In this document: piece after piece, positions 3,577-5,324 of the stretch
How positions within the stretch are numbered: the stretch's first letter is position 1
How the letters are laid out: each line of letters opens with the position of its first letter
NCBI GenBank assembly: GCA_003696125.1
Contig: RFHZ01000606.1
Location: 1 to 7,915, forward strand
Direction of reading: 5' to 3'
Origin: Nitrospinota bacterium
Lineage (GTDB): Bacteria > Tectomicrobia > Entotheonellia > J063
DNA length: 7,915 nucleotides
The notes under the pieces: model-generated
Seen by the model: the letters and a program-made list of their open reading frames with translations, nothing else
Told to the model about the DNA's origin: nothing
Databases searched by the model: none
Position numbers and translations under genes: made by a program

Positions 3577-4746
3577 ATGCTCTATCGTGAGAAGGTACTC
3601 GAGGCGTTGGAGAAAAAACGGGAGGATTTCTCTACTTACAACAGCGAATATCGTGATGAAGCCGCCCTTTATACCAGAGCCTTAAAAGAACTGCAAACCC
3701 TCCCCTGGGAGGCCTGGCAGGGAAGACTCCAGTCTGACCCCTGGCCGGGTGCTCTGCCCAGTCCAGAGGTGGCCGAATACCGGAGCCTGCACATCCCTTT
3801 TACCCCCCGCTGGCAGAGTCACCAGGAGGCACGGGACTGGGCTTACCAGACCATCTGTGCCACCCCGACCTTTGCCGTGGATGGAAGCCAGATCCTCCCC
3901 AGCAAGGACTTTTCCGTCCCTGTGGCCCTGATTCAGGTCGCCTGGTTTGAAAACCGGCACCTGCCGACCGGAGAATACGTCAAAGAGAACCGGGTAGAAA
4001 TCAGGACTCCCCGGGAAATCATGGCCCTGGAAGGAGGGGAACGACTCTTTTCCGAAGCGACCATCAGCCTGCACCGCTTTCAGATGGAAGTGGAAGTGCT
4101 GCAGGAGTATATCACGACGCACAGTCGCGATCCGCTGCCGGTGGTGTTCCTGGATGGTTCGCTTATCGTCTCCTTTGCCGAACGGTTGTCCGACGAGTAC
4201 CGGAACGGGTATGTGCAGGCCATCCTGCGACTCCTGCGCACGGCAGCAGAGGCCCGGGTCCCTCTGGTCGGGTACATCGATACCACCTATGCGCGGGATC
4301 TGGTCGAGATGTTGACCCTGGTCGGCGATCTGCCTCCGGCCACCTCCATACATGATGCCATCCTGGTCGGCCGGAACTTTTCCTGGGGGGATCGTACCCC
4401 GTTCTTCTACTGCCGGCGCAAAGGGATCCTCTCGCACTACGAAGACCAGGCCCATGCCCTCGGGTTTCTCTATCTCAAGACCACCCGCCATCTCCCCCCG
4501 GCCCGTCTGGAGATTCCCTGTTGGGTATATGAAGCAGGACTCCTCCCCTGGGTGGTCGATATCGTGCGGGCCGACCTGGTCATCGGGAATGGGTATCCGT
4601 ACACCATTGAGACCGCCGATGCTGCCGCGGTGTTGACCGGCCAGGATCGAGAGCACTTCTATCGTCTCTTCCAGGAGTTTTTGGAGAGAGAAGGCATCCC
4701 TCTTCGCATCTCGCGCAAAGCGGTCAGTAAAATCAGGAGGCGGTAA
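3577..4746 (+). CDS. nurA: NurA-family nuclease (DNA double-strand break end resection)
   Basis: A 389-residue NurA-domain protein. The amino end (1-50) is helical and charged. The nuclease core starts at FAVDGSQILPS (99-109), which carries the metal-binding Asp102 of motif I, followed by VVFLDGSLI (189-197, Asp193), the VGYIDTTYARDLVEML helix (231-246) and the C-terminal GYPYTIETADAAAVL block (339-353, Asp348) typical of the family. NurA is a Mn-dependent, RNase H-like 5'-3' exonuclease/endonuclease that in archaea forms a complex with the HerA translocase and resects DNA ends together with Mre11-Rad50. Here the next gene encodes a HAS-barrel protein, two bases after the stop, with its ribosome site inside the 3' end of nurA. 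No HerA, Mre11 or Rad50 gene is in view. A purine-rich AGGAGAGGG sits seven bases before the ATG. The family call is secure; bacterial partners and exact role are inferred. Confidence 0.9.
   Translation: MLYREKVLEALEKKREDFSTYNSEYRDEAALYTRALKELQTLPWEAWQGRLQSDPWPGALPSPEVAEYRSLHIPFTPRWQSHQEARDWAYQTICATPTFAVDGSQILPSKDFSVPVALIQVAWFENRHLPTGEYVKENRVEIRTPREIMALEGGERLFSEATISLHRFQMEVEVLQEYITTHSRDPLPVVFLDGSLIVSFAERLSDEYRNGYVQAILRLLRTAAEARVPLVGYIDTTYARDLVEMLTLVGDLPPATSIHDAILVGRNFSWGDRTPFFYCRRKGILSHYEDQAHALGFLYLKTTRHLPPARLEIPCWVYEAGLLPWVVDIVRADLVIGNGYPYTIETADAAAVLTGQDREHFYRLFQEFLEREGIPLRISRKAVSKIRRR
4735..4740 (+). promoter_or_regulatory. Ribosome binding site deciding the GTG start of the HAS-barrel gene
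   Basis: A perfect AGGAGG lies within the last codons of nurA, eight bases before GTG 4749. It supports the GTG start and implies translational coupling of the two genes. Confidence 0.75.
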
Positions 4747-4748
4747 CA

Positions 4749-5324
4749 GTGATCATCGGGAAGATCGTGAAATCAAACTCCCATATCGACTATCTCTGCC
4801 GTATCCTGGACCGGCTGGAGACGGCCGATCCTCCTCAACCGCACGACTACGCCTTTGGCCAGTTTGTCCGCATCGGTACCGAGACGGTCGGTATCATCTA
4901 CGATTCCCAGCTCATCAATCCCGACTACGGGAACTACGGTCCTCGTCTCACCACCCCTCCCGAGCAGAATGCGGTCTTCAGCCCAGATTATCTGAACGAA
5001 CAGGCCACCCTGGTCGGTATTCTCCTGCTCGGCTGGCTCGAGGGATCGATAGGGATTCACCGTGTTCCCCGCTACGTCATCCCGATCAACACCGAGGTCG
5101 AGACCATGGATGAGGAGGCGATCCGCCGTTTTCATTCCGATCAGGACCAGGAATTCCAGCTCCATTACTACTCGCATATCCTCACCCATGCCGGGCCGAT
5201 CGGGATCCAGCTCCTCTTGACCGTCATCGAACAGCTTGGTAGACTCTTCACCGAAGCGAGCGCAAGCCTGCAGATTCTCCAGGATACCCTGAGCTGGCAA
5301 CTTACCTTAAGTCAGATACGCTGA
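4749..5324 (+). CDS. HAS-barrel (HerA N-terminal-like) domain protein partnered with NurA
   Basis: A 191-residue protein beginning IIGKIVKSNSHIDYLCRI (2-19), then FGQFVRIGTETVGIIYDSQL (36-55). This pattern, a short 'G.V....s....' strand, a 'G.FV.I' turn and a 'vGiI.ds.l' strand, is that of the small beta barrel at the front of HerA and related ATPases (the HerA-ATP synthase, or HAS, barrel). Residues 85-115 include a hydrophobic strand (LVGILLLGWL) and VPRYVIPINTEV; the rest is mostly helical. There is no Walker A (GxxxxGK[ST]) or Walker B, so this is not a complete HerA. In archaeal complexes the HAS barrel region is where HerA docks on NurA, so a NurA-binding adaptor is a reasonable guess (inference). 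The GTG start is fixed by AGGAGG at 4735-4740 and lies two bases after the nurA stop. The domain name is less sure than the pairing with nurA; it could be a lineage-specific subunit only resembling the barrel. Confidence 0.68.
   Translation: MIIGKIVKSNSHIDYLCRILDRLETADPPQPHDYAFGQFVRIGTETVGIIYDSQLINPDYGNYGPRLTTPPEQNAVFSPDYLNEQATLVGILLLGWLEGSIGIHRVPRYVIPINTEVETMDEEAIRRFHSDQDQEFQLHYYSHILTHAGPIGIQLLLTVIEQLGRLFTEASASLQILQDTLSWQLTLSQIR

Follow-up and report, generated by a model that had tools for sequence, protein, structure and literature searches.

A small HAS-barrel-like protein encoded with nurA and herA is a candidate third component of some NurA-HerA systems

A 7,915-nucleotide contig of a Nitrospinota bacterium (RFHZ01000606.1, assembly GCA_003696125.1), referred to here as the window, carries a gene for a NurA nuclease followed immediately by a gene for a small protein, designated X. 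A first-pass annotation of this DNA likened X to the HAS barrel of HerA, saw no HerA ATPase beside it, and proposed that X is a barrel split from HerA that acts as a NurA adaptor, possibly recruiting either a HerA encoded elsewhere or a different motor. The locus raises the question of what X is and with which protein, NurA or HerA, it belongs.

The nurA-X gene pair and the HerA of the source genome

Residues 98-352 of the nurA product match the Pfam NurA family with a score of 143 bits against a curated cut-off of 21, covering profile positions 3-253 of 254 and hence the full domain. The motifs D102-G-S and D193-G are at least 95% conserved among 24 NurA relatives, and this is the only NurA copy in the source genome. 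The nurA stop codon (TAA, 4744-4746) is separated by two bases from the GTG start codon of X, which is also a single-copy gene. An AGGAGG sequence (Table 1) lies eight bases before this GTG. The position of the AGGAGG inside the end of nurA and the two-base gap are as expected for translational coupling, and X is probably coupled to nurA in this manner. X contains no Walker motifs and so lacks the Walker A/B ATPase core of HerA. The gene content first described for this locus, a full NurA and a closely following protein devoid of Walker motifs, is thus confirmed. Downstream of X is a DUF6800 gene on the opposite strand, and the next gene is therefore not herA. Directly upstream of nurA is an adenosine-specific kinase gene (PF04008, 3037-3519) that is probably unrelated.

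Table 1. Features of the nurA-X locus in window coordinates
Feature	Position	Strand	Description and basis
nurA	3577..4746	+	NurA-family nuclease, 389 aa; Pfam PF09376, E=1.2e-41
Shine-Dalgarno AGGAGG for X	4735..4740	+	Read from the sequence; inside the nurA 3' end
X	4749..5324	+	191-aa stand-alone HAS-barrel-like protein, putative partner family of HerA; family profile, nurA-X-herA operons
X residues 1-112	4749..5084	+	HAS-barrel-like part; sub-threshold PF09378 matches in relatives, colinear profile match to HerA N-termini
X residues 120-191	5106..5321	+	Family-specific C-terminal part; conservation; probably helical

The absence of HerA holds for the window but not for the genome. The source genome, assembled from a metagenome, is fragmented into 990 contigs, with 95% completeness and 8% contamination. 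Another of these contigs, C356, encodes a complete HerA of 571 residues with a Walker A motif (STGSGKS), a Walker B region (FILLEEGHR) and its own N-terminal barrel region. The two genes of a NurA-HerA system are thus present in one genome, with nurA and X together and herA at another locus. C356 ends 10 bases from the herA start codon, so that the upstream neighbour of herA falls beyond the contig. As this HerA is complete and has its own barrel region, X would be an additional barrel-like protein and not a split-off barrel. The source genome also encodes a second HerA-like ATPase (DUF87; L002:631-2592, contig C97 of G000) whose C-terminus matches the DnaX tau domain.

That the window contig is a contaminant is an unlikely reason for herA being elsewhere, because X and the C356 HerA both find their nearest relatives in one small set of genomes (G548 and cyanobacteria), as suits a single lineage; this is not proof, as the closest relatives of NurA are not from that set. 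A separate contig filed as Thermofilaceae archaeon (L004, JALURF010000169.1) contains other genes joined via a poly-T run, near L004:4930-4952, to a stretch 99% identical to the window nurA end and X. Its DNA beyond X is unlike the window, and it is probably an assembly chimera.

Conservation of X and its association with HerA

Relatives of X share 58-62% identity with the window protein in another bacterial phylum (L147), approximately 42% in Ktedonobacter, and 32-34% in haloarchaea, where they are encoded on four plasmids (tblastn E down to 3e-27) and annotated as 'hypothetical protein'. X was found in 59 of 301 Chloroflexota genomes, Ktedonobacteria among them, in 9 of 146 genomes of a phylum taken to be Cyanobacteria on account of a phycobiliprotein-like gene in the neighbourhood, and in a single genome from another, small phylum. 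The N-terminal part (residues 1-112) carries the motifs IGkIVkSnSH..Y, FG.FV, VGiIyds.L.NP..G..GPRL, and sPDYL.E.atlvgilllG, while the conserved core of the family reads IG.IVkSnSH..Y, FG.FV, vGviydT.L.NP..G..GPRL, F.PdyL.E.atlvgi..lG, FH, and Y.p.l. The C-terminal part contains the FH motif and the invariant or nearly invariant residues Tyr140, Leu163, and Trp183; low-confidence models suggest that it is probably helical. Given conserved relatives and motifs across phyla, we rejected the possibility that X is a chance open reading frame.

The window protein matches no Pfam family, and neither Pfam nor NCBIfam holds a model for the X family. Searches of X against PHROGs, PADLOC, NCBIfam, phage records, and, by sequence, solved structures returned no match, and a search for relatives on viral contigs found none. 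A phage or defence role is thus unsupported by PHROGs, PADLOC, or phage records. Judged by its sequence relatives, X is a conserved, unstudied family. A third gene of NurA-HerA is undescribed in the open literature that we searched; Iyer et al. 2004, in which the HAS barrel was reportedly named, lies outside that search and may mention solo barrels.

Using a HerA clade defined by a Ktedonobacter HerA query (E≤1e-60), we compared the distribution of X with that of HerA. The same nine of the 146 cyanobacterial genomes contain both, with the genes linked in three and unlinked in six (Fisher 1.5e-14, shared ancestry ignored). Among the 301 Chloroflexota genomes X is present in 59 and the HerA clade in 58, with both in 57 (Fisher 6e-58, again ignoring shared ancestry). 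X is positioned at the edge of a contig in the two genomes with X and no HerA (G195 and G219), whereas the HerA of the one genome with HerA and no X (G163) is a fragment. NurA is found in 57 of the 59 Chloroflexota genomes with X versus 130 of the 242 without it. Mirror-tree comparison of distance matrices, uncorrected for phylogeny, gave partial correlations of 0.53 for X-HerA and 0.19 for X-NurA. By these sequence-based measures X is tied more tightly to HerA than to NurA.

Examination of gene neighbourhoods revealed that nurA, X, and herA are closely packed in that order at 15 Chloroflexota loci among those read, six of which have -4/-4 overlaps; two further Chloroflexota loci have the same order with wider gaps. 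Close spacing of nurA-X-herA was also observed in one cyanobacterium and on the four haloarchaeal plasmids. Other arrangements are X-herA with nurA elsewhere, in Ktedonobacteria and several other lineages, and nurA-X with herA elsewhere, in the window, L050, and L068. In the three plasmids for which upstream genes are shown (L166-L168), the operon encodes a metallophosphoesterase (Mre11-like), an SMC ATPase (Rad50-like), NurA, X, and HerA; the fourth, L169, shows the operon end only. The same resection genes make up the mre11-rad50-herA-nurA operon of thermophilic archaea, of which the haloarchaeal plasmid operons resemble a three-component version, although no X gene is mentioned for the thermophilic operon (PMC7776575). 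A DEAD/DEAH helicase gene precedes the haloarchaeal operon in two of L166-L168. These three plasmids carry nurA-X-herA although Haloferax volcanii is said to be without NurA and HerA (PMC7776575).

In other Chloroflexota a gene of approximately 200 codons, X2, is located between nurA and the herA of a different HerA clade (L138, L139, L140, L142, L144, L146, and L204). Comparison of X and X2 profiles gave 97% probability, with P values of 9e-11 and 2.9e-12, and a Pfam search of X2 returned nothing above cut-off. We interpret X2, from these profiles and its position, as a divergent homologue of X in the same slot. In one genome, G107, an X-herA pair coexists with a nurA-X2-herA operon.

Relationship of X to the HAS barrel

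The proposed resemblance of X to a HAS barrel gains support from family-level comparisons, but no member of the family passes the Pfam cut-off. The HAS-barrel profile PF09378 matches residues 3-61 of two relatives below cut-off (L063, E=0.01; L065, E=0.029), as well as the X2 of L146 (E=0.011). The X of the window gave no match, and the best relatives scored 16.4 and 14.9 bits against the required 25.2. HerA N-termini are also weak against this profile: that of the source genome (L010; E=0.13, 12.8 bits) fails the cut-off, and those of X-bearing genomes reach E=0.018 at best, so that the X matches are no worse. HAS-barrel is the only Pfam family matched recurrently by X and X2 in matching register, the register being that of the HerA N-terminus. 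X differs from PF09378 in that it stands alone and has a family-specific NP..G..GPRL loop and C-terminal part.

Alignment of a pooled X profile with pooled HerA N-termini was colinear, with a score of 33.4 (P 1.6e-4, probability ~50%). None of 200 shuffles scored above 26.2, and controls with NurA and the ATPase domain gave 12-14. An enlarged comparison scored 34.1 (P 1.5e-4, probability likewise ~50%), while one of 300 shuffles reached 33.1 and the others 24.8 or less. Chloroflexota X sequences alone gave no significant match to HerA N-termini (P 0.06-0.07). As significance was reached only once the comparison included X2 and the sequences from cyanobacteria and haloarchaea, and several profile pairings were tried, we grade this support as moderate. 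AlphaFold2 yielded pLDDT values of 39.7 and 45.3 (two alignments; six sequences, comprising the window protein and five Ktedonobacteria proteins) and gave no usable fold of X because the alignment was too shallow. Given the moderate profile support, the N-terminal part of X is likely, though not proven to be, homologous to the HerA HAS barrel.

A proposed role for X in NurA-HerA systems

The exit ring of the Deinococcus radiodurans HerA consists of six HAS barrels, to which a NurA dimer binds in a 6:2 complex (PMC9960219). This system likewise combines a NurA nuclease with a HerA ATPase bearing an N-terminal HAS barrel, and its nurA and herA are treated as one operon; it differs in consisting of two proteins only, with no X described (PMC9960219). 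The nurA-hepA genes of Thermus are also a bacterial nurA-herA pair with the HAS barrel in HerA, but there the stop codon of nurA overlaps the start of hepA, so that X would have no space between them (PMC5448004). Since descriptions of these NurA-HerA systems and of the Sulfolobus operon include no X, it is not generally needed for resection; by this comparison X is a feature of some NurA-HerA systems and not all. A 'HAS barrel domain protein' and a 'NurA domain-containing protein' are among the 20 unique gene families of the UCYN-A1 group (PMC12234771). Their occurrence in UCYN-A1 only is consistent with joint loss in UCYN-A2, whether the HAS protein is X or HerA not being stated.

Because X is associated most tightly with HerA, we recast the proposed NurA adaptor as a third subunit of a NurA-X-HerA machine. 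We consider it reasonably probable that X is a non-enzymatic, obligate subunit of this DNA-end-resection machine. By analogy with the known complexes, X would dock at the exit face of the HerA hexamer, on its ring of six HAS barrels, the site occupied in those complexes by the NurA dimer. The C-terminal part of X may bridge to NurA or gate it, and DNA pumped through HerA would be delivered to the nuclease via this bridge or gate. As X is nearly always accompanied by one HerA clade and is encoded between nurA and herA, docking at the HerA ring is the simplest reading.

Other roles would account for part of these observations. X could be an assembly or loading factor for HerA, a chaperone or nucleator of the hexameric ring whose barrel adds to or templates that ring, with NurA a downstream user only. 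The phyletic pattern and distance trees, in which X follows HerA more closely than NurA, and the many genomes in which X-herA has no adjacent nurA, would fit such a factor. We nevertheless regard it as rather unlikely: HerA of D. radiodurans assembles into a hexamer without X (PMC9960219), and the nurA-X pairs that lack herA, together with the haloarchaeal nurA-X-herA order, point to contact with both proteins. Somewhat less likely still, X may be no HAS barrel at all and instead a small protein of unrelated origin with a DNA-binding or regulatory function, encoded alongside nurA and herA, for example a NurA brake or a DNA-end sensor. The sub-threshold Pfam scores, the modest profile match, and the failure of AlphaFold2 to yield a fold agree with this, whereas the best Pfam matches of X and X2 are to the HAS barrel, in the register of HerA N-termini, and the profile score exceeds those of shuffled sequences.

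The original proposal, a NurA adaptor split from HerA that recruits a barrel-less HerA or a different motor, has become very improbable. The tight coupling of nurA and X in the window and the resemblance to a HAS barrel are in its favour. However, the HerA of the source genome retains its own N-terminal barrel region, as do the HerAs examined in relatives that carry X, and X is normally encoded directly upstream of such a complete herA. The near-complete overlap of X with HerA (57 of the 58 Chloroflexota genomes with this HerA) also speaks against a different motor. Coupling of X to NurA and conservation of the two together are supported. Of the two circumstances named together as refuting the proposal, a complete HerA and a pair that is not conserved, the genome survey showed the first, a complete HerA with its own barrel region, yet the gene association proved strongly conserved.

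Returning to X as a subunit, a broader scheme can be put forward only tentatively. NurA-X-HerA systems might constitute a three-component branch, spanning bacteria and haloarchaea, in which a stand-alone HAS-barrel subunit is obligate in the HerA ring and perhaps reconciles its six HerA subunits with the two of NurA; a second HerA clade would then employ a divergent form of this subunit. NurA-HerA has been studied as a two-protein machine; if X is a true subunit, a large share of these complexes would have been described minus one subunit. X makes the coupling of a nuclease dimer to a six-fold translocase directly testable, and the role proposed here predicts a function for a group of 'hypothetical proteins'.
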